In this document: positions 6,060-20,182 of the stretch, piece by piece
Layout: every line of letters begins with the position of its first letter
Position numbering within the stretch: position 1 is the stretch's first letter
DNA from: Klebsiella pneumoniae
GTDB lineage: Bacteria > Pseudomonadota > Gammaproteobacteria > Pseudomonadales > CAMAPQ01
Assembly: GCA_945860125.1 (NCBI GenBank)
Contig: CAMAPQ010000016.1
Coordinates: forward strand, 1-39,016
Direction: 5' to 3'
DNA: 39,016 nucleotides
Program-made: the position numbers and the translations under genes
The notes under the pieces: generated by a model
Told to the model about the DNA's origin: nothing
The model's database searches: none
Seen by the model: only the letters and a program-made list of their open reading frames with translations

Positions 6060-6896
6060 CTAATTTTCAATAAGATCAGGTTCATTTGAGTCTTCCTCAC
6101 TCTCATGCTGCGCAGAAACAATAGAAGCCATCTGAGGGTGCAGCTCATTAAAAAGCGCAATAAACTCATGTGTTAACTTATGTTTTGGCGCACAGTGAAT
6201 AAGCGGCTTTCCTAAGTCATGCGATTCACGCATTTTTACTGAAAAAGACAACAAAGTATTCAGTATTGGCAAGCCCTCACTTCTCAACTCCTCCACCACT
6301 CGCTGAGGAAATGTTGCCCTTGGCTGAAACTGATTAACAATAATGCCTTCTATCGTTAGGCGAGGATTATGATCTGCCCTTGCCTCTTCAACATTTTCCA
6401 TTAAAGAGTATAAAGCTCGGCGAGAAAATTCATCACAGTCGAAAGGAATTAAACAGGCATTTGCAGCAATCAGTGCAGATAATGTATAAAAATTATACGC
6501 AGGTGGAGTATCAATATAAACAGCATCATAATCATCTAACGATTTCAGAAGATCTCTTAATTTTAGTATCTTATGTTTAGACTCTAACTGAGCTTGTAAC
6601 TTACCTAAGGCCACACTGCCGGCAATCATATCTAAATTTTCATACTGTGTGCTGCGAACAAAAGAACGGGGCTTTTGCGACAGCAGTTTAAAAGATAAAC
6701 TTTGCTCAAAAAAGTCTCCTATAGTGACCTGCGAACCTTTATCTTCTCTACCTAAAAGGTAATAGGTAGAGTTACACTGAGAATCTAAGTCAACCACTAG
6801 GGTCTTAAGCCCTTTTTCAGCACTAATCGCAGCTAAATTTGCTGTAATGCTTGATTTACCCACACCACCTTTCTGATTAAAAATAACTCTGCGCAT
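6060..6896 (-). CDS. ParA-family ATPase without ParB
   Basis: This 278-aa P-loop ATPase has the deviant Walker A motif KGGVGKSS (residues 9-16), with the signature lysine of the ParA/MinD group. Walker A' is VVDLDSQCNST and Walker B is VYIDTPP. It closely resembles the solitary chromosomal ParA of Pseudomonas and Xanthomonas (MRRVIFNQKGGVGKS at the N-terminus). No parB or parS-like partner is visible nearby, so it is more likely a positioning ATPase for a protein or organelle cargo than a plasmid partition gene. AGAGGC precedes the ATG. It lies 66 bases downstream of the UbiJ-like gene on the same strand. Confidence 0.88.
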   Translation of the reverse strand: MRRVIFNQKGGVGKSSITANLAAISAEKGLKTLVVDLDSQCNSTYYLLGREDKGSQVTIGDFFEQSLSFKLLSQKPRSFVRSTQYENLDMIAGSVALGKLQAQLESKHKILKLRDLLKSLDDYDAVYIDTPPAYNFYTLSALIAANACLIPFDCDEFSRRALYSLMENVEEARADHNPRLTIEGIIVNQFQPRATFPQRVVEELRSEGLPILNTLLSFSVKMRESHDLGKPLIHCAPKHKLTHEFIALFNELHPQMASIVSAQHESEEDSNEPDLIEN

Positions 6897-6962
6897 AAAA
6901 AAGCCTCTAAAAAACGATTCATTATTTAAGTTTTAAACCTCTGCTGCAGAAGATACATGCCG

Positions 6963-7721
6963 TTACAGCAGCAGCAACAACCATCCTAGAGAAAACAAAA
7001 AAACAGTTGCCTGAGAAATAAGTAACTTCCACTGACTAAGCTCAGCCACCATAAAAACTACTGAAAATATTAGCAAAAAAACACCCAAAAGCCTGATTTT
7101 TACCTTCTTTTTTTTCTGTTGATGTAATAACTGCTTTACCTCTTGCAGAGTATCAACAAACATCTCTTGGGTTTTACGGGATAACTGCATCTCTTTTGAG
7201 ACGACACCAAACCATTCTGGCAAAGCATGAATCGTTTCTAACAAAGATACATCATTGGCAATTAACGCTTTAATCATGTCATTCTTTTTATACTGCCGAG
7301 GAAAAAATTCTTGCAAAATACCAACAAGACTCTTTGATAATTGAAGACGATCAAGCAGAAAAAAAAACTTTTGAACAACCTCAAAATCACCAATTACTTG
7401 AATATGGCTTAATATCGTTTCTTTCGTTTCAGCCCCCAACAAAAAGCCTGCAAGCAATTTTGCAGATACTTCAGCACGAACATCAACACCCCCATCAAAT
7501 TGGTGGTAAAGCTGAATACCCGATTGAGCAAGTATCACAAAAATCACGCAGTGAGGATCTTCTGTTTTAATTCGAACAACTCTACCAATATACGGATGAA
7601 TAAGCTGTGCCGCTTGTAAATCAGACTCCAGCGCTTTATTAATAAGCAACTCAATGAGTCCTAGAACCCAAATCTGCCAAACAGCCGCGCTTTGATTTAC
7701 AGCAAGCATATCCTTAGCCAC
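6963..7721 (-). CDS. UbiJ/SCP2-like protein with C-terminal membrane hairpin
   Basis: This 252-aa protein has an N-terminal region that reads like UbiJ, the SCP2-fold ubiquinone-synthesis accessory factor: ELLINKALESDLQAAQLI, then IGRVVRIKT, then IQVIGDFEVVQKF, which matches GDIQVVQNF of E. coli UbiJ. A basic KKKKVK stretch near 205 precedes two hydrophobic segments (about 210-230 and 235-252) that would anchor it in the membrane. Normal UbiJ is about 200 aa and lacks such an anchor. No ubiE or ubiB is adjacent; its neighbour is ParA. Its role in quinone synthesis is therefore unproven. Confidence 0.6.
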   Translation of the reverse strand: MAKDMLAVNQSAAVWQIWVLGLIELLINKALESDLQAAQLIHPYIGRVVRIKTEDPHCVIFVILAQSGIQLYHQFDGGVDVRAEVSAKLLAGFLLGAETKETILSHIQVIGDFEVVQKFFFLLDRLQLSKSLVGILQEFFPRQYKKNDMIKALIANDVSLLETIHALPEWFGVVSKEMQLSRKTQEMFVDTLQEVKQLLHQQKKKKVKIRLLGVFLLIFSVVFMVAELSQWKLLISQATVFLFSLGWLLLLL

Positions 7722-7891
7722 CCAAAAAGAACCATTGTATCTATAAGATTACGACTCTGTGAAGTATTTGTTTTTTACCACATAGAAAAATAAAAAAAAC
7801 GATATAATGCTTACATAGTATCGTGATGAGGATCGTATCCAATAACCAGGAAATCATAACCTTTATTTTTGTTTTAGAAAAAAATTCATGG

Positions 7892-9163
7892 ATGAAATTG
7901 ACAATGATGGTACTTGAATGGATTAACTCTTTAACTTACTCGTTCATTCCCCCCATAATGAATGCCTTCTCAGGACAAAAACCGACCAATATGATTAGCA
8001 TACCTATCATTACAGCAATAATAGGATGGCTAATAAACTGGCTTACCATCAAAATAACTTTTTATCCTATTAAATTTATTGGGATTCGTCCTTTCTTCGG
8101 CTGGCAAGGCATTATTCCTGCAAAAGCCGAAAAAATATCAGGAATGATGGCTGATAACATCATATCAAAACTTGGATCGCTCAAAGCGTTTTTTCTGCCA
8201 ATAGAAATTGATCAAATATCCAATCAAGTTAATATTTTTTTTCAAGATAATATAGAACACTATATCAATAAAATCATGCTAGAAAATAATGCTATTTTCT
8301 GGGAAAACTTACCCAGAAGCGCTAAAGAAAAAATATATGGCCATATACAACATGTACTACCTGAGCTATCACGAAATATGATTATTGATATAGCTCAACG
8401 TATCGAAGATTTAATTGATTTAAAAGAGGTGATAACAAATCAAATACTCAAAGAAAAAAAAAATCTGAACAAAATATTCATGGAGGTAGGTCATAAAGAG
8501 CTACGATTTTTCGCCTTGTCAGGGCTATATTTTGGCTTTTCTTTAGGCTTAATCGAAATGATCATCTGGATTTACTTTCCAGAACATTGGATCTTGTTAG
8601 CTTGCGGTTTTATTATTGGCATTCTCACGCCTTTCCTTGCTATAAACTGTATTTTTAGACCACTACACCCCATTAAATTAGGCCGCTATCATTATCAAGG
8701 GCTACTCCTTAAAAGGCAGAAGGAAGCATCATTGGTTTTCTGCCGCCTGATCGCCCAAGATATCCTTTCGATTGACAAAATCATGCAAGCTATCCTAGCT
8801 GGATCACACTCCCATACTGCGAAAAGAATTATCACGCAACATCTTAAACCACTTATAGAAGGACCTATTATTAAAATAGCCTCTCAAGTTGCGCTCGGTG
8901 AAAATGGATATGCTGACTTGAAAAAAAGTATCGAGCTAGAGTTTATTCACCTCATATCCGAATCATTCAAAAGTAAAAAATTTAACATAGCCCATACCTG
9001 CGCACTAGAAGCAATGCTAAATAAACGAATCCAAAAACTCTCACCTGAAGAATTTCAAGATGTATTACGCCCTGTCTTCCAAGAAAACCAATGGGTTTTA
9101 GTTATCATCAGTGCTACTTTAGGTATGCTTGCAGGACTAATACAAAACTTGTTTATTTCATAA
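7892..9163 (+). CDS. DUF445 family membrane protein
   Basis: The DUF445 signature is clear: TAIIGWLINWLTIKITFYP followed by GWQGIIPAKAEKIS, corresponding to the GWxTNxLAI...GWQGxIP pattern of the family. There is one N-terminal membrane segment, a long helical middle, two central segments (with AINCIFRPLHP between halves) and a C-terminal segment. The frame is open from a GTG at 7823, but a TATAAT at 7803-7808 would put the transcript start almost on top of it. I prefer an internal ATG (7892 or 7904). The family function is unknown. The next gene may be a relative. Confidence 0.78.
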   Translation: MKLTMMVLEWINSLTYSFIPPIMNAFSGQKPTNMISIPIITAIIGWLINWLTIKITFYPIKFIGIRPFFGWQGIIPAKAEKISGMMADNIISKLGSLKAFFLPIEIDQISNQVNIFFQDNIEHYINKIMLENNAIFWENLPRSAKEKIYGHIQHVLPELSRNMIIDIAQRIEDLIDLKEVITNQILKEKKNLNKIFMEVGHKELRFFALSGLYFGFSLGLIEMIIWIYFPEHWILLACGFIIGILTPFLAINCIFRPLHPIKLGRYHYQGLLLKRQKEASLVFCRLIAQDILSIDKIMQAILAGSHSHTAKRIITQHLKPLIEGPIIKIASQVALGENGYADLKKSIELEFIHLISESFKSKKFNIAHTCALEAMLNKRIQKLSPEEFQDVLRPVFQENQWVLVIISATLGMLAGLIQNLFIS

Positions 9164-9232: not shown

Positions 9233-10348
9233 ATGGCACTTTTTCTTTGCCTACTACTTGCCCCCTTTCCTATTTGGCTAGGGTTTAAATTACTTCCTTA
9301 TTTTTCATCTCCTCTTTTTTACGTTGACAGACTTCAGCAAGTACACTTTTTAATTGGAAATGCGCAAAAAGTTTTTTTGGCCTATATTGGCCATATTTTA
9401 AACAGCTATCTTGAAGTGATTTTTTCAACTGCTGCTTTATGGGAAATGCTTCAACCGGAAAGAGTATTTTTTAAGCTAAAAAATAGCGCTTTATCTATTT
9501 TTGAAGAAGAGCTAGATGCAATTATGAACGAAGTAGATTATACAGGTTGGAGCAATGTGTCTTTAATCGTTAAAAATAGAACATATTACTTATTTAAAAA
9601 AGAAGCAGAAATTTTTCTAGAAAGTTTAATTGATGAAATCACTCGCTTTCCAGAACAACACATTAACTACCAAAGACTGACAGCAAAAACCCAATCACAA
9701 AATAATTATTTTGCTCAAAAAGTATTTTCTCAACTAATATCCAACCTTAGCATAACAAACAAACAACCCTCTCATATTTTGAGCTTAAGCTTTTTTCCTA
9801 TGATAACGTTATTCTTTAACCAGGGAACAATTGCTATTATTTTAAGCGTTGCATTGAGTATTGCGCTGTCTAGCATGTATTTTGGCGCCTATTATATAAA
9901 AGATAAAAGGCTAAAAAAAAATAATGGCTTTTCTTCTATTTTACTACGACAAAATATATCATTAGAAAGTATTATTAATGATGTTTTAAATCAAAACAGT
10001 CTTAAAATACAATACATTTTAGAAAAAAGCGGGCGTAAAATGCATCAAAGATTAAAAAATAATCTACTCAGTCATGCCTACTCAGAAAATTTACTACATA
10101 ACATACAGCAGTGTTTAAAACGTGTATTAATCAATGTTTGCCATGATGCAGACTTTAATCAAGAATGTATTCTTATGCTTGAGAAGAAAAAAAATAACGA
10201 GCAATGCAAAAAAGAAACTCTTTTTACAGCTCGATTATTAACCAACCTATACTTTAATCAATACATAAAATACCACCTAGTTCTGCTTATGAATGCCTCA
10301 CTTGTTTTTTCTGTTTATTTCTTAATCAACTATTTTAAAAGAACCTAA
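9233..10348 (+). CDS. Multi-pass membrane protein, possibly a divergent DUF445 relative
   Basis: This 371-aa protein has the same topology as its upstream neighbour: an N-terminal hydrophobic segment (about 1-22), a long amphipathic helical stretch, a central segment near 195-220 (IAIILSVALSIALSSMYFGA), another helical stretch and a C-terminal segment (VLLMNASLVFSVYFLINYF). I see no catalytic motif and no clear DUF445 signature, so the relationship rests on topology, size and adjacency. AGGGA precedes the ATG. It is unusually rich in Lys, Asn, Ile and Leu codons. It is four bases upstream of the receiver-GGDEF gene, so cotranscription is likely. Confidence 0.6.
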   Translation: MALFLCLLLAPFPIWLGFKLLPYFSSPLFYVDRLQQVHFLIGNAQKVFLAYIGHILNSYLEVIFSTAALWEMLQPERVFFKLKNSALSIFEEELDAIMNEVDYTGWSNVSLIVKNRTYYLFKKEAEIFLESLIDEITRFPEQHINYQRLTAKTQSQNNYFAQKVFSQLISNLSITNKQPSHILSLSFFPMITLFFNQGTIAIILSVALSIALSSMYFGAYYIKDKRLKKNNGFSSILLRQNISLESIINDVLNQNSLKIQYILEKSGRKMHQRLKNNLLSHAYSENLLHNIQQCLKRVLINVCHDADFNQECILMLEKKKNNEQCKKETLFTARLLTNLYFNQYIKYHLVLLMNASLVFSVYFLINYFKRT

Positions 10349-10352
10349 ACAC

Positions 10353-11348
10353 ATGAATCACACTTATTTTATTAAAATATTAATTTTAAGTCATAGCGAG
10401 CAACTTACAGCACTTATACGAAATACCTTTAAAAAAATCGACTCACTTAAATTTCATATTATTGAAGTTAATGATATTGAAACAGCGAAACAACAAACCT
10501 CTAGCACACTATTTGATCTTATCTTTCTTGATATGGATGAAAGCGCTAAGCATCTATTTTATGAATTAGATACCCTTATGCTAGAAGCGCCCTCTGTAAG
10601 TATTCTATGTTTGTTAGATAATGAAAACCAAGAATTGTCTAAGCAGTGCTTAGACAGAGGGGCAACTGACTTTCTTATTAAACAAGAATGGCCTGAAGAC
10701 TTAATTATGCGCGCACTACGCTACAATCTTTATTATAAAAAAAGCAAAGAAAAAATCATGCAGCTTTTACAGCATGACGAACTAACAGGCGTAGCCAACA
10801 GGCATCTTTTGCTAGATCGACTATCTCAAGCCATTCTTCGATCAGAAAGAAGCAACCTTAAAATTGCCGTTCTTTTTATTGACATTGATAACTTTAGAAA
10901 TATCAACGAATCAATTGGTTATCAAGCTGGCGATGTCATTTTAAAAGAAACAGCCAGCCGACTAATCGATTGCGTACGCCGCCAAGATACCGTATCCAGA
11001 TTTGGTAGCGATGAATTTATTTTAATATTAGAAGGCTTATCTGATGCACAATATATTCTTAATATTTTACAAGAATTAAAACTAAGCCTTGAAGACCCTA
11101 TTTTTTTTAATACGCAATCTTTATATATATCAACTTCTATAGGTATAGCTGTATTAGAAGATCACGCACTAATGATCGATTCTCTTGATCTAATTAAACA
11201 AGCAGATATTGCAAGATATAGAGCAAAAGAAAAAGGGAGAAATACTTACCATTTTTACTCAGAAAAATATAATAAGCTCGTAGAAAAAAGAGAGGACTTA
11301 CAAAATAAACTCCAAGAAACACTAAACCGTATATTTAAACCATCATAA
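10353..11348 (+). CDS. Response regulator with GGDEF output (diguanylate cyclase)
   Basis: This 331-aa protein has an N-terminal receiver-like domain (about 6-125), with an aspartate in IFLDMDESA and a lysine in DFLIKQE, and a GGDEF domain (about 140-310). The GGDEF domain begins DELTGVANRHLL and has the active loop SRFGSDEFIL, with Ser in the second position. The RRQD inhibitory site lies five residues before the loop, so product feedback is expected. GSDEF loops occur in catalytic and degenerate proteins, so activity is likely but not certain. It probably makes c-di-GMP in response to phosphorylation. Only four bases separate it from the membrane gene upstream. Confidence 0.87.
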   Translation: MNHTYFIKILILSHSEQLTALIRNTFKKIDSLKFHIIEVNDIETAKQQTSSTLFDLIFLDMDESAKHLFYELDTLMLEAPSVSILCLLDNENQELSKQCLDRGATDFLIKQEWPEDLIMRALRYNLYYKKSKEKIMQLLQHDELTGVANRHLLLDRLSQAILRSERSNLKIAVLFIDIDNFRNINESIGYQAGDVILKETASRLIDCVRRQDTVSRFGSDEFILILEGLSDAQYILNILQELKLSLEDPIFFNTQSLYISTSIGIAVLEDHALMIDSLDLIKQADIARYRAKEKGRNTYHFYSEKYNKLVEKREDLQNKLQETLNRIFKPS

Positions 11349-11573: not shown

Positions 11574-12788
11574 ATGACGAAAGCCACTCTGGATGCCAGC
11601 CAGATAGAGATTTTTTCTTTTATTCACCAGCACGCCCCCATATCTACTAAAGCAACAGTGCAATCTTTTCAAACTCAAGGCGCTATCTCTGAGAGTCAAA
11701 TTATCGTATCAACTAAAATAGAATCATTAGAGCATACTGCTCAGATGCTCGTTAGCCTTCCCACTTTATCTAATAAAGTTTTTATTACGATTACTGATAA
11801 AGCAACGCCTATCTTTGCTAAAGTTTTAGCCGGACTAAGCGCAAAAAGTGAGACAAGCGATGCTATTACTTATGGTTTTTTTGAGCAAATTTATGACGAG
11901 ACTTTTAGAAAAGCAAAATGGGAAGGCATATTGCTAACATCAATAAAAGTATTGATTGACGGATTTCCTTACACGTATACAACAAAGGAAGAGGAAGCAA
12001 TTGAATTCATTCTTGTTTTACCTATTAATGCGTACGAGATACTGATTGCTCAACGAAAAGGCAGCAAAGAACTCATCAACTACCTTAGTTCTCACCCAAG
12101 AAACTTATTTAAATTTGATCAGCAACCAGAAGAAACTTTACGCATAAAAAATAATACACCGGAAATAAAAGCTGTATCTGCGCCTACACCAACAGAATCA
12201 ACGCCGATAATTGAAAAATCAAAAGAAACAAAAGCTAAAAAACCAAAAAAAGCTGAAAAAACCCATTATGTGGAGGGAAAAGATCAAAGCTTAAGCTTTA
12301 ATGCTATTTTTTCTTCTGTTGAAATTAACCCCATCGAAAAAGCACCTAGTAGCATTACAGCCTATAACAGGCTTAAAAGTCATCCCGACTTATTAAAAGA
12401 TAAACTCCCTGAGAGCATAAAAAATAATGTGCCTACAAATCCAATAGAATCAATTAACTTAACGAAAAAAAATAACGTCTTTACTGATATTTTACCCCTT
12501 GAACCTAAAATAGCTCATACATATAACGCGGCAATACCAAAACATATCTCTCATCACAAATCAACATCATCCACACAAGACTCAAAACAAATAAGCCAAG
12601 GACGGGTAAGGTTTCAACTAATTGCAGAAACAGTGGTAGGCAGCATTTTGCTAACAGGTGGAATATTCGCATCATTTATTCTATTACAAACTAAGCTAGC
12701 AATAGCGAGCATTTTAGGCGGACTATTCGGTATTGCAGGCCTAATGCTTTTAGGTAATGCGCTCAAAAATGCAGTAAAAAACACTTAA
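11574..12788 (+). CDS. Unknown 404-aa protein: N-terminal globular domain, linker, C-terminal membrane hairpin
   Basis: I do not recognise this protein with confidence. Residues 1-170 look globular; the stretch AIEFILVLPINAYEILIAQR and a following KGSKELINYL resemble the end of bacterial suppressor-of-fused domains, a weak match. Residues about 180-340 are a low-complexity Lys/Pro/Ser/Thr linker. The last 60 residues hold two hydrophobic segments separated by a short turn (GSILLTGGIFASFILL, then IASILGGLFGIAGLMLLG), giving a membrane-anchored cytoplasmic protein. It opens the 11574-15003 run. The ribosome site is weak, so coupling to the small upstream ORF is possible. Confidence 0.65.
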   Translation: MTKATLDASQIEIFSFIHQHAPISTKATVQSFQTQGAISESQIIVSTKIESLEHTAQMLVSLPTLSNKVFITITDKATPIFAKVLAGLSAKSETSDAITYGFFEQIYDETFRKAKWEGILLTSIKVLIDGFPYTYTTKEEEAIEFILVLPINAYEILIAQRKGSKELINYLSSHPRNLFKFDQQPEETLRIKNNTPEIKAVSAPTPTESTPIIEKSKETKAKKPKKAEKTHYVEGKDQSLSFNAIFSSVEINPIEKAPSSITAYNRLKSHPDLLKDKLPESIKNNVPTNPIESINLTKKNNVFTDILPLEPKIAHTYNAAIPKHISHHKSTSSTQDSKQISQGRVRFQLIAETVVGSILLTGGIFASFILLQTKLAIASILGGLFGIAGLMLLGNALKNAVKNT

Positions 12789-12813
12789 AATATCCCCCAA
12801 AAATCTGCCAAGT

Positions 12814-12826
12814 GTTACGCTGTAAC
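12814..12826. promoter_or_regulatory. GTTAC-N3-GTAAC palindrome
   Basis: A perfect 5-bp inverted repeat, GTTAC GCT GTAAC, lies 44 bases before the ATG at 12870, in the gap between the 404-aa and 234-aa genes. It could be a dimeric regulator site. Its GTAAC half is the same word as in the repeats before the kinase gene at 24740, but there the words are direct repeats. Confidence 0.3.
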
Positions 12827-12869
12827 TATGCAGGAAAATATTTTTTTCTTACTTTGTATAAGGTGATTC

Positions 12870-13574
12870 ATGAGCATTTTCTCAAAAAAAACCAATAATG
12901 AACAAAAAAATCCTACTGAGTTTTTATTTGAACTAGCTGACACGTCAAAAGAAACATCTATGCTACCAGCAAATAAAACCACTCAACAACCTAGCGTCTC
13001 TACACAGGCTAAGGCGGATCAAAAAGAACCCAACTTATTGAAAACAAAAAAGGAAACAAGCGGTTCACCTTTCTCTTCATCTAAAATTAATGATCAATCC
13101 TCATTAAATCATACGATCACAGAAAAACCACTTATTGATCGACGACAAGGCAGCTTATTTACAATTGAAAAGGCACTAGAATTATTTAACTCACTCCCAC
13201 CAGTTGACGTCACAATAGCCACATCACTGATCAAGCAAACATTACAAACAGTAGGTGTCGATTTAGGCAAGGTTATAATCGAAGCACGCGAAAAACTATC
13301 CTCAGCAGAAAAGGAATCAACTCATCTTCAAAATGAAATTTACACTTTAGAACTTAAGCTAGCCAAGCTAAAAGAGAGACTAGATCACACCGATAACAAT
13401 AAAGAAAATATTAAACGTATCCTGTTTTTATTAACTCAAAGTGCGTCTATAGATAAAATACAACAAATAAGCACTCATTCTGCTCAAAATCTATTTACAG
13501 AGTCTTTCAGTCACCCCTCGGATACAACGTCTATACTTTTTGGGGAAGATGATAAAAAAACCAATACACCGTAA
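12870..13574 (+). CDS. Unknown 234-aa protein with conserved-looking helical/coiled-coil core
   Basis: The N-terminal 95 residues are low-complexity and Ser/Thr/Lys-rich. The core (about 98-200) looks conserved: FTIEKALELFNSLPPVDVTI, then a KQTLQTVGVDLGKVIIEA helix, then a heptad-type coiled coil (ESTHLQNEIYTLELKLAKL). The tail is acidic and polar. There is no signal peptide or membrane segment, so it should be cytoplasmic. AAGGTGATTC precedes the ATG. Six bases separate it from the membrane-anchored receiver gene, also rich in coiled coil, so the two may interact. No database family comes to mind. Confidence 0.68.
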   Translation: MSIFSKKTNNEQKNPTEFLFELADTSKETSMLPANKTTQQPSVSTQAKADQKEPNLLKTKKETSGSPFSSSKINDQSSLNHTITEKPLIDRRQGSLFTIEKALELFNSLPPVDVTIATSLIKQTLQTVGVDLGKVIIEAREKLSSAEKESTHLQNEIYTLELKLAKLKERLDHTDNNKENIKRILFLLTQSASIDKIQQISTHSAQNLFTESFSHPSDTTSILFGEDDKKTNTP

Positions 13575-13580
13575 AAAAAT

Positions 13581-14636
13581 ATGCTTAAGGCTCTTATTGT
13601 TGACGACTCTCGCTCTGCGCGATTCTCGTTAAAAAAAATGTTAGAAAAACTATCAGTAATGACAGAAGAAGCAGCTTCTGGCCAAGAAGCATTATTGCTT
13701 TTGGAACGGCTAGAATACCTGCCAGATATTATTTTTATGGATCACTATATGCCTGATATAGATGGGTTTGAAGTTACAAAAAGATTAAGATCTAAATCTG
13801 GATGGTCTCAAATACCTATCATTATGTGCACATCTAAGGATGGTGATGAATATAAACAAGAAGCGCTTCAAGTCGGTGCTAATGAGATTATTACTAAACC
13901 GGCAAAATATGAAGAAATCATGATGCTAATTAGTAAAACTCAAGAAGCAAGACCAATCAAACCGCAAAATATACTACCTATCGAAGCAAAAGCTGAGAGT
14001 AATCAAATAATTGAACCCAAAGATCAAAAAATATTTGAGAAAGCTATTCTAGAACTAGCCGAAAAAAACCGCCTGTACTTAGAGGATAAAATAGCCAGCA
14101 AATTTGAAGATTTTCAGAGTGAAATTCTCAAAATAGAAGAAGATATCGACAATATTAAAAATAAAATAGAGCTAAAGTATAGACAGTTAAGTAATGAAGC
14201 CATGACCTCAGTTAAACAACTCATTCATGAATCATTATTATTACAACACTCAAACTTTATGAATCATGAATTAGCAGCTCTGAAAGCAAGTTTAGAAAAA
14301 AATATTTTACTAGCTCGGCAAGACATTCAACCTCAAATTCTTGGCCTTAAAAACAGTTTTGAGCAGCTTAGCGAAAAAGCTCAAACCGAAAACGAGACGC
14401 ACAATGAAAAAGTCTTCTTACTTGCCAGTGAACTAATTCATAAAGAAATTGAAAAATTACAGGCTAATTATTCTTATACTAATGAAAAAATCCAATCTGT
14501 AGAAAATAAAATAAGACAAGAACTAAAGTTGGTTTTACAAAATACTCAACAGAAACAACAACAAAATCAATTAGTGGTCTATAGTTTAGTTGGAATCTCA
14601 ATTGTACTTGCGGTAATTGGAATAGTTGTTTTCTGA
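13581..14636 (+). CDS. Receiver domain fused to coiled coil and C-terminal membrane anchor
   Basis: This 351-aa protein has a CheY-type receiver (1-125) with acidic DD (8-9), phospho-acceptor Asp54 in IFMDHYMP, a Thr/Ser position in MCTSKDG and Lys in ITKPAKY, so all phosphorylation residues are present. Residues about 140-325 are almost wholly helical and charged, typical of coiled coil. The last 24 residues form one membrane segment (VVYSLVGISIVLAVIGIVVF). There is no DNA-binding or enzymatic output. A receiver on a long stalk tethered to the membrane suggests a phospho-switchable scaffold. It is tightly linked to the genes on both sides. Confidence 0.82.
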   Translation: MLKALIVDDSRSARFSLKKMLEKLSVMTEEAASGQEALLLLERLEYLPDIIFMDHYMPDIDGFEVTKRLRSKSGWSQIPIIMCTSKDGDEYKQEALQVGANEIITKPAKYEEIMMLISKTQEARPIKPQNILPIEAKAESNQIIEPKDQKIFEKAILELAEKNRLYLEDKIASKFEDFQSEILKIEEDIDNIKNKIELKYRQLSNEAMTSVKQLIHESLLLQHSNFMNHELAALKASLEKNILLARQDIQPQILGLKNSFEQLSEKAQTENETHNEKVFLLASELIHKEIEKLQANYSYTNEKIQSVENKIRQELKLVLQNTQQKQQQNQLVVYSLVGISIVLAVIGIVVF

Positions 14637-14703
14637 GATTACAGCAAGTACTTACTCAACTAAATAACTTAAAAAAACTACTGCTCACATGCGGAACATC
14701 AGA

Positions 14704-15003
14704 ATGTCAAATTTCAGTAAAAAATTTAGCGCTTTCATCACGTCAAATTTCAGTAAAAAATGTAACACTTGTATTAGTAAGTTTTTTGGAGCAAAAAATA
14801 GTGAAGCTACGACTCAAAAAGAAGATATAGATGATGATGGGCTTGCTAAAGCAAAAATAGAAGAAAAAATTAAGCACTATCAAGCTCACGGGAAACAAGC
14901 ATCTAAGGGACTAGATGATCCAAGCTTTAGTACAGCTGTGAATAAATTAGAGAAAGAGGACTACGCCTCACTATTTCAACAATCAAAAGAAGAAAAGAAG
15001 TGA
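14704..15003 (+). CDS. Unknown small charged protein with duplicated N-terminal 12-mer
   Basis: From the ATG at 14704 the product is 99 aa; an ATG at 14689 would add five residues but has no ribosome site, while CGGAAC precedes 14704. The first 24 residues are two copies of a 12-residue unit starting SNFSKK. The rest is acidic and basic by turns, and ends in a conserved-looking helix: KIEEKIKHYQAHGKQAS, then LDDPSFSTAVNKLEKEDY. There is no membrane segment. It is the last gene of the cluster and converges on the PhaC-like gene with a one-base gap. I cannot assign a family. Confidence 0.6.
   Translation: MSNFSKKFSAFITSNFSKKCNTCISKFFGAKNSEATTQKEDIDDDGLAKAKIEEKIKHYQAHGKQASKGLDDPSFSTAVNKLEKEDYASLFQQSKEEKK
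14706..14761. repeat. Direct repeat of 20 bases with 36-bp period
   Basis: The word GTCAAATTTCAGTAAAAAAT occurs at 14706-14725 and again at 14742-14761. The 36-bp period is 12 codons, so the coding frame is kept. The intervening parts have already diverged. Confidence 0.9.
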
Positions 15004-15004
15004 T

Positions 15005-17279
<2,275 letters not shown>

Positions 17280-19720: not shown

Positions 19721-20146
19721 TTACTCCTCCACCTTGTCAGCAACATATTGCTCAATAAGTGATAAATAAGGCGAAACATCTGTCATAAACTTAAACCCTA
19801 TCTGATACCCTCCTCCAGCCTGACTCAATACAGAATAAACAACTTCCCCCACAGCCTTTAGCGTCATTTTTTTGCCCTTATAAGCCACTGAGATCTCAAA
19901 ATATAATCGTTCAGCATTTTTAAAATTAACAGGCAGCTCTATCGATACACCGCCCACAGAAATATTGCACGCCCGCCCTGCTAGCTGTTCTTTTTTTTGT
20001 GTCACAACCCTTACTTTCCAACTACAGGCAGCACGTTTATTGATACGCTTTTGCTTTTGCTGGGCTTTAAGCTCTGCTTCTTTTGCTGTATCAACTTTTT
20101 TTGCATCTTGACCGTCCAAGATTGAAAAAAAGCCATCCTCACTCAT
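19721..20146 (-). CDS. PilZ-domain protein
   Basis: A PilZ domain occupies roughly residues 35-135. The c-di-GMP binding motif RxxxR is present as RINKR, and the second motif appears as NISVGGV (D/NxSxxG). The short N-terminal extension is Lys/Gln-rich. I chose the ATG at 20146 (141 aa), preceded by GGATG; a TTG at 20170 would add eight residues. It should be a c-di-GMP effector with both binding motifs intact. It follows another PilZ gene by about 36 bases, in the neighbourhood of a receiver-GGDEF gene. The target is unknown. Confidence 0.85.
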   Translation of the reverse strand: MSEDGFFSILDGQDAKKVDTAKEAELKAQQKQKRINKRAACSWKVRVVTQKKEQLAGRACNISVGGVSIELPVNFKNAERLYFEISVAYKGKKMTLKAVGEVVYSVLSQAGGGYQIGFKFMTDVSPYLSLIEQYVADKVEE

Positions 20147-20182
20147 ATAAACATCCGCAATAAAAAACAATCAAGGCAAATA

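Follow-up and report, generated by a model that had tools for sequence, protein, structure and literature searches.

Receivers lacking output domains are common, and stand-alone response regulators are known from the CheY or DivK type, just as receivers joined to a GGDEF domain are known from the PleD or WspR type. SUFU (Suppressor of fused) is chiefly known from animal Hedgehog signalling. In bacteria, SUFU domains have been described as conferring immunity in polymorphic toxin systems (PMC3482391). Here, we describe a gene block in which these three kinds of domain are predicted to occur side by side. It lies in the window, i.e. the whole 39,016-nucleotide stretch of contig CAMAPQ010000016.1 from a little-studied bacterium of the order Pseudomonadales, and it contains a receiver–GGDEF gene followed by three open reading frames (ORFs): P1 (11574–12788), with a predicted SUFU domain and a membrane hairpin, P2 (12870–13574), a helical protein of an unnamed family, and P3 (13581–14636), a receiver with a C-terminal transmembrane (TM) segment. 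A fourth ORF, P4 (14689–15003), follows. The block offers candidate partners, in conserved order, for the question of how a membrane-fixed receiver without an output domain relays its signal, and it hints at an uncharacterised route of signal passing at the membrane. Other genomes and loci are designated G and L.

Conservation of the gene block

The original prediction, made from this DNA alone, described four adjoining genes on one strand with the middle pair six bases apart and a receiver–GGDEF gene just upstream, and the ORF list agrees in all of these points. P1 to P4 encode 404, 234, 351 and 104 residues on the + strand, separated by 81, 6 and 52 bp, and the receiver–GGDEF gene (10353–11348) lies 225 bp before P1. 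In P1 to P4 the stated frame exceeds the other five by codon usage (0.19–0.30 bits per codon versus negative values). Promoter and terminator scans gave counts close to those of shuffled sequence (24 versus 27.7 and 6 versus 4.2, respectively).

Four further genomes, which represent three other families of the order, carry the block completely or partially, with approximately 21–51% identity over the aligned parts. The corresponding BLAST identities are 27–34% for P1, 24–32% for P2, 32–51% for P3 and 37–42% for the receiver–GGDEF protein (42% in G021, 40% in G032 and 37% in G018), and the first DUF445 gene has BLAST relatives in G021 and G018 (42–45%). G021 and G061 belong to one family; G032, G018 and the window bring the total to four. 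In G021 (Pseudomonadales metagenome-assembled genome DC_out160), two DUF445-type genes, OsmC and an EF-P-like gene on the opposite strand are followed by the receiver–GGDEF gene, a second GGDEF gene, P1, P2, P3 and an adenylate/guanylate cyclase gene. The G061 (NORP220) contig starts at P1 and continues with P2, P3 and a homologous cyclase in the same place. G032 has one DUF445-like gene, the receiver–GGDEF gene, P1 and P2, and then other genes, and G018 has two DUF445-like genes, the receiver–GGDEF gene and P1 together. P2 directly adjoins P3 in the window, G021, G061 and G018. The receiver–GGDEF orthologue is the gene immediately before P1 in three cases (the window, G018 and G032) and stands one gene earlier in G021.

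In wider searches, a P1 profile matches six of 390 genomes of the order, comprising the five with P1 and G159, which has a plain SUFU protein. Three of 274 genomes of the class match: the window genome and two with SUFU-type proteins, of which one narrowly misses the Pfam cut-off. No further members came from the families of G021 and G018, which comprise two genomes and one, respectively.

Since P1, P2 and P3 recur together across families, they look like one unit. The gene order anticipated for other genomes is present as P1–P2–P3 in two genomes of another family and as P1–P2 in a third, and is broken in G018, where the block is split. Separation in relatives had been named in advance as a ground for abandoning the module: P2 and P3 stay paired, but P1 is separated from them in G018, and P3 is missing beside P2 in G032. 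The four-gene extent originally proposed did not survive; the block runs upstream over the receiver–GGDEF and DUF445-type genes and excludes P4.

P3, a tail-anchored receiver

P3 matches Pfam Response_reg (PF00072) with an E value of 2.3e-27 and 95.8 bits against a cut-off of 30.2. It consists of the receiver (residues ∼1–120), a long stalk and a single C-terminal TM segment at residues 332–350 with a mean hydropathy of 2.79. The phosphorylation residues Asp8, Asp9, Asp54, Thr84 and Lys106 are intact. No further domain exceeds a Pfam cut-off, and the best 25 of 88 NCBIfam matches are all below theirs. Of 1000 shuffles, 22 reach the stalk value for maximum heptad-like periodicity, and 24 that for the mean. 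A receiver on a coiled-coil stalk with a C-terminal anchor, retaining its phosphorylation residues and lacking an output domain, is what had been predicted. P3 is a receiver by the PF00072 criterion, and it lacks the output domain on the same protein that characterizes a classical response regulator.

We compared P3 with 20 receiver ORFs in its 19 best non-self loci, a sample biased towards P3 because the loci were chosen by similarity to it and the ORFs by a receiver motif. A C-terminal TM segment is present in 15, an internal one in four and none in one. Together with P3 this gives 21 receivers (16 tail-anchored and five with an internal TM segment or none), in all of which the acidic pair, the phosphoacceptor aspartate and the lysine are intact; the threonine is kept in 20 and is serine in one. 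The receiver tree does not decide whether the P2-linked receivers are a single clade. Four receivers with internal TM segments (L012:601-1908, L014:745-1869, L017:1498-2652 and L018:1495-2670) have similar C-terminal ends with a pattern like WNxxAxxNxRV, where Pfam gives no match at E 0.01. In L026:6380-11587, two genes intervene between a tail-anchored receiver and a ZipA homologue, and in L083:5687-8821, another adjoins an aldehyde-dehydrogenase-family gene that resembles proA.

Of the 15 tail-anchored receivers, only those of G021, G061 and G018 adjoin P2, and P3-type receivers are, as far as these searches reach, more widespread than P1 or P2. This distribution would fit the idea that P3 is an independent tail-anchored receiver, that P1 and P2 serve another purpose and that the block persists through co-expression, without a shared complex. 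The split block in G018 and the missing P3 in G032 point in the same direction. However, the P2–P3 adjacency survives the split in G018, and the gene order is held at the low P1, P2 and P3 identities given above. We consider this explanation unlikely.

P1, a SUFU protein with a membrane hairpin

P1 was described in the original prediction as a 404-residue protein with a C-terminal membrane hairpin, and hydropathy analysis agrees, with two TM segments at residues 353–371 and 375–393. Its status as an unknown protein has to be given up, since the N-terminal part (∼6–179), which precedes a low-confidence linker, carries a recognisable predicted SUFU domain. This assignment is based on Pfam in one orthologue, profile comparison and the modelled fold. 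Window P1 scores 16.9 bits (E 0.006) against Pfam SUFU (PF05076), under the cut-off of 25 bits; the G061 orthologue exceeds it with 26.1 bits, those of G021 and G032 reach 21.1 and 15.3 bits, and that of G018 gives no match. Three SUFU-type proteins found elsewhere by the P1 profile were tested, of which two exceed the Pfam cut-off and the third scores 24.1 bits, and profile comparison of P1 with these three gives a probability of 95.9 and an E value of 5.4e-9.

The AlphaFold model of P1, built from three sequences, has a mean predicted local distance difference test (pLDDT) value of 50.2. Within residues 1–180, the confidence is moderate, with 14 of 18 ten-residue blocks at 60–81 and four at 38–47. 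The sole Foldseek match of this model at E ≤0.001 is 3k5j, a bacterial SUFU homologue (E 3.3e-4, probability 1.00), which VIA superposes with a Z score of 13.4 and a root-mean-square deviation of 3.2 over 162 residues. The top twelve VIA rows are all SUFU entries (Z 10.5–13.4), and the rows after these, from Z 9.4 downward, cover only the C-terminal helices. The P1 profile gives zero matches to Protein Data Bank (PDB) sequences at E ≤1.

A SUFU domain in a bacterium raises the question of whether P1 confers immunity in a polymorphic toxin system and stands beside signalling genes by chance, as the published description of bacterial SUFU domains might suggest (PMC3482391). The surroundings of P1 speak against this. 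No toxin family exceeds its Pfam cut-off in the 19 window proteins scanned, P1 neighbours included; in the relatives, the scan covered a part of the neighbours. PHROGs (three proteins) and PADLOC (six proteins) return no matches. Furthermore, P1 is kept in a block with the receiver–GGDEF gene or P2 across four families, and four of the five P1 proteins bear the membrane hairpin. We regard an immunity role as very improbable; the SUFU domain is found here in a setting of phosphorylation and cyclic di-guanosine monophosphate (c-di-GMP).

P2, a helical protein family

P2 has no TM segment by hydropathy. Its AlphaFold model shows a low-confidence N-terminus, two short helices (residues 99–108 and 114–128) and a long helix (132–212) that is mostly of high confidence. 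The predicted coiled coil finds partial agreement: the long helix and the mean heptad-like periodicity, reached by 15 of 1000 shuffles, are in its favour, but the maximum periodicity is unremarkable, with 131 of 1000 shuffles reaching it. The P1 linker, taken as a control, is matched by 459 (maximum) or 661 (mean) per 1000 shuffles. P2 has no match over a cut-off in Pfam or NCBIfam, and its model gives no Foldseek match at E ≤0.001. The P2 profile has 21 matches to PDB sequences at E ≤0.1, located in the helical part and coiled-coil-like. A DivIVA-type polar scaffold was considered and rejected (Pfam DivIVA E 0.7, 10.3 bits versus a cut-off of 28). Two P2 relatives likewise have nothing over an NCBIfam cut-off, their matches to TraP, ASRP and FcmC being far below those of the families.

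P2 is present in eight of 95 genomes of the order. All five P1 genomes carry it, and the remaining three belong to family f17; none of these three is among the six P1 matches of the 390-genome search. In one of them, G057, two P2 copies lie near a double-FHA protein with a C-terminal TM segment, and neither P1 nor P3 is seen beside P2 in the G016 and G090 stretches. A P2 search of 299 genomes of the phylum matches four, the window genome and three in which the match starts no earlier than position 27 and lies inside frames of 490–773 residues. In the phylum of a Myxococcales locus, P2 is matched in 12 of 235 genomes, seven of them strongly and including the query genome. Pseudomonadales and Myxococcales records both contain the P2 family, whose tested members have no database match over a cut-off (Pfam and NCBIfam for window P2, NCBIfam for the two relatives).

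The neighbours of P2 outside the block are of other kinds. In three of eight Myxococcales-type loci, the gene after P2 encodes a protein with a TM segment. Its assignment as a receiver joined to an HATPase was rejected: the receiver is unsupported (hhalign probability 0.2, E 0.25), and HATPase_c_2 scores 24.1 against a cut-off of 27.4, so we call it only HATPase_c_2-like with a TM segment. The double-FHA protein with a C-terminal TM segment is found within a few kilobases of P2 in two loci, with Pfam FHA tested in that of G057. In both L045:3521-10130 and L059:3742-10444, two diverged P2 copies flank such a protein; the L045 locus also holds a Pfam-tested receiver–GGDEF gene, and L059 looks alike.

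The upstream receiver–GGDEF and DUF445-type genes

The protein encoded at 10353–11348 (+) matches Pfam GGDEF (4.7e-41) and has an RxxD pattern, and its N-terminal receiver is degenerate, with 26.4 bits for Response_reg under the cut-off of 30.2. In the alignment of four orthologues, the phosphoacceptor aspartate is kept in all four, the acidic pair is incomplete in all four (S/H, S/E, D/G and H/R), and the lysine position is lysine only in the window and G032. Judged by the alignment, the protein does not have a complete receiver pocket of acidic pair, aspartate and lysine. Because the acidic pair is incomplete, a conventional response of this receiver to phosphorylation is improbable. It is appealing, though purely conjectural, that the cyclase has a phospho-responsive partner such as P3.

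Two membrane-protein genes precede the cyclase gene. The first (7823–9163, +) opens the conserved block and is of DUF445 type, with 45% identity to L021:960-2213 (E 3.5e-129) and 42% to L035:1828-3048 by BLAST. L021:960-2213 itself matches Pfam DUF445 with 55.4 bits against a cut-off of 33.8, and the window protein is under that cut-off (E 0.15). The second (9233–10348, +) is DUF445-like but very divergent, and it has no Pfam match. In BLAST, it matches L021:960-2213 (E 3.8e-8) and L021:2510-3733 (E 5.1e-5) weakly and the genes at the equivalent place in G018 and G032 not at all; we equate it with the latter by position and by a profile that includes the window copy.

These genes bring in a second explanation, according to which the block would encode a membrane scaffold for envelope, polarity or cell shape, founded on the DUF445-type proteins; the receiver would be its phospho-switch, and the cyclase a passenger or a parallel output. 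In G065 and G028, tail-anchored receivers also have DUF445-type genes nearby, and no P1, P2 or receiver–GGDEF orthologue was found in these 14-kb stretches; the ZipA homologue near the L026 receiver would fit as well. The position of the receiver–GGDEF gene, directly before P1 or one gene away wherever the contig extends upstream of P1, speaks against this explanation. We judge such a scaffold rather unlikely.

A possible assembly at the inner membrane

In our preferred reading, the products of the block would assemble at the inner membrane: P3 would receive the phosphorylation input, P2 would act as adaptor, P1 would bind a client with its SUFU arm, and the cyclase would be the probable output. 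The C-terminal helix would anchor P3 and hold its phosphorylatable receiver in the cytoplasm on the long stalk, and P1 would bring a protein-binding fold, its SUFU domain, to this membrane as well. P2, soluble and helical, could bind the P3 stalk and bridge P3 to P1. Phosphorylation of P3 by an unlinked kinase would then alter the assembly and expose or recruit a partner. The likeliest partner would be the upstream diguanylate cyclase with the degenerate receiver, so that c-di-GMP would be made or withheld at the site. The sequence data establish the genes, their domains, the hydrophobic segments, the intact receiver pocket of P3, the incomplete one of the cyclase and the conservation of the block; we infer the membrane orientation, all of the protein contacts, the kinase, the cyclase as output and any role of the DUF445-type genes.

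Several observations weigh against this assembly. In G018, the P2–P3 pair lies 9.7 kb from P1 on the same contig, and the C-terminal segment of P1 is under the TM threshold, which leaves the hairpin in four of five P1 proteins. G032, a 93% complete genome, has P1–P2 with no adjacent P3, and the best receiver match there sits in an 816-residue frame. Twelve of the 15 tail-anchored receivers have neither P1 nor P2 in the stretches inspected. The window cyclase has the signature GSDEF instead of GGDEF, so its activity is not assured. Further afield, five of the eight Myxococcales-type loci have no HATPase-like neighbour of P2, and the N-terminus of the partner in the others reaches only the low receiver probability given above. 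Considering the split in G018, the lack of P3 beside P2 in G032 and the number of P3-type receivers that stand alone, we hold the inner-membrane assembly tentatively, at somewhat less than an even chance.

A broader extension is more speculative, and we think it doubtful: P2 might be a general adaptor for signalling proteins of receiver, FHA or HATPase type held by C-terminal TM segments in distant phyla, and in this block it might connect the tail-anchored P3 with the membrane-tethered P1, which, as a SUFU protein, would hold and release a client under phosphorylation control. If true, this would be a new kind of bacterial signalling module, parallel to SUFU holding GLI in Hedgehog signalling.

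P4 and flanking genes

P4 is a small charged ORF with no TM segment by hydropathy. Among 90 genomes searched, it was found in its own alone; P4 is therefore placed outside the conserved block, and its proposed membership of the module is dropped. A 36-nucleotide tandem duplication near its start (14699–14770, 83% identical) repeats the peptide SNFSKK and is local.

On the upstream side, a ParA-type ATPase gene adjoins one for an SCP2-like protein with a C-terminal TM segment (6060–7721, − strand). Both have BLAST relatives beside the block in G032, where the pair is kept upstream (L034:3769-5425, − strand). A Class III PhaC-like hydrolase gene (15005–16117, −) is convergent with the block and adjoins a thiolase gene; its match to TIGR01836 (171.4 bits) is below the cut-off of 365.3. 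The PhaC-like and thiolase proteins have no relatives in the six stretches searched, in which the upstream flank of G021 is hardly covered. A PilZ-domain protein is encoded approximately 5 kb downstream of the block (19721–20170, −), and G021 has a PilZ protein approximately 3 kb downstream of P3.

Comparison with known systems

Receivers, SUFU domains and GGDEF domains are each of a known kind. The Pfam, NCBIfam, PHROGs and PADLOC scans made gave no instance of their combination, of the P2 family or of a SUFU protein tethered to the membrane within a signalling block. A literature search for these three found none, which is weak evidence as most subscription journals are outside its coverage, and a search on membrane-anchored, tail-anchored or stand-alone receivers returned no paper combining all terms. 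The available parts of PMC8789113 and PMC9927289 contain no description of such an arrangement.

P3 resembles the stand-alone response regulators in its intact receiver and lack of a recognised output domain, and differs from them in its stalk of approximately 210 residues with heptad-like periodicity and its C-terminal membrane anchor. The upstream protein shares with receiver–GGDEF response regulators the domain pair and the RxxD pattern; however, the acidic pair is incomplete in all four orthologues, and the signature in the window is GSDEF. The tail-anchored double-FHA proteins (in G057 and, in L059, a Moraxellaceae metagenome-assembled genome) also join a signalling domain to a C-terminal TM segment near P2 homologues, but they carry FHA rather than a receiver, and P1 is not seen in those stretches. 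Finally, the modelled N-terminal region of P1 has the fold of the SUFU family (PF05076), which includes bacterial Imm-SuFu; its similarity to 3k5j is accompanied by a likeness to human and Drosophila SUFU (Z 10.5–12.2), and its C-terminal stretch resembles that of bacterial members. P1 differs from this family in the sub-cut-off Pfam score of the window protein, its membrane hairpin and long linker, and its setting in a block with receiver and GGDEF genes.

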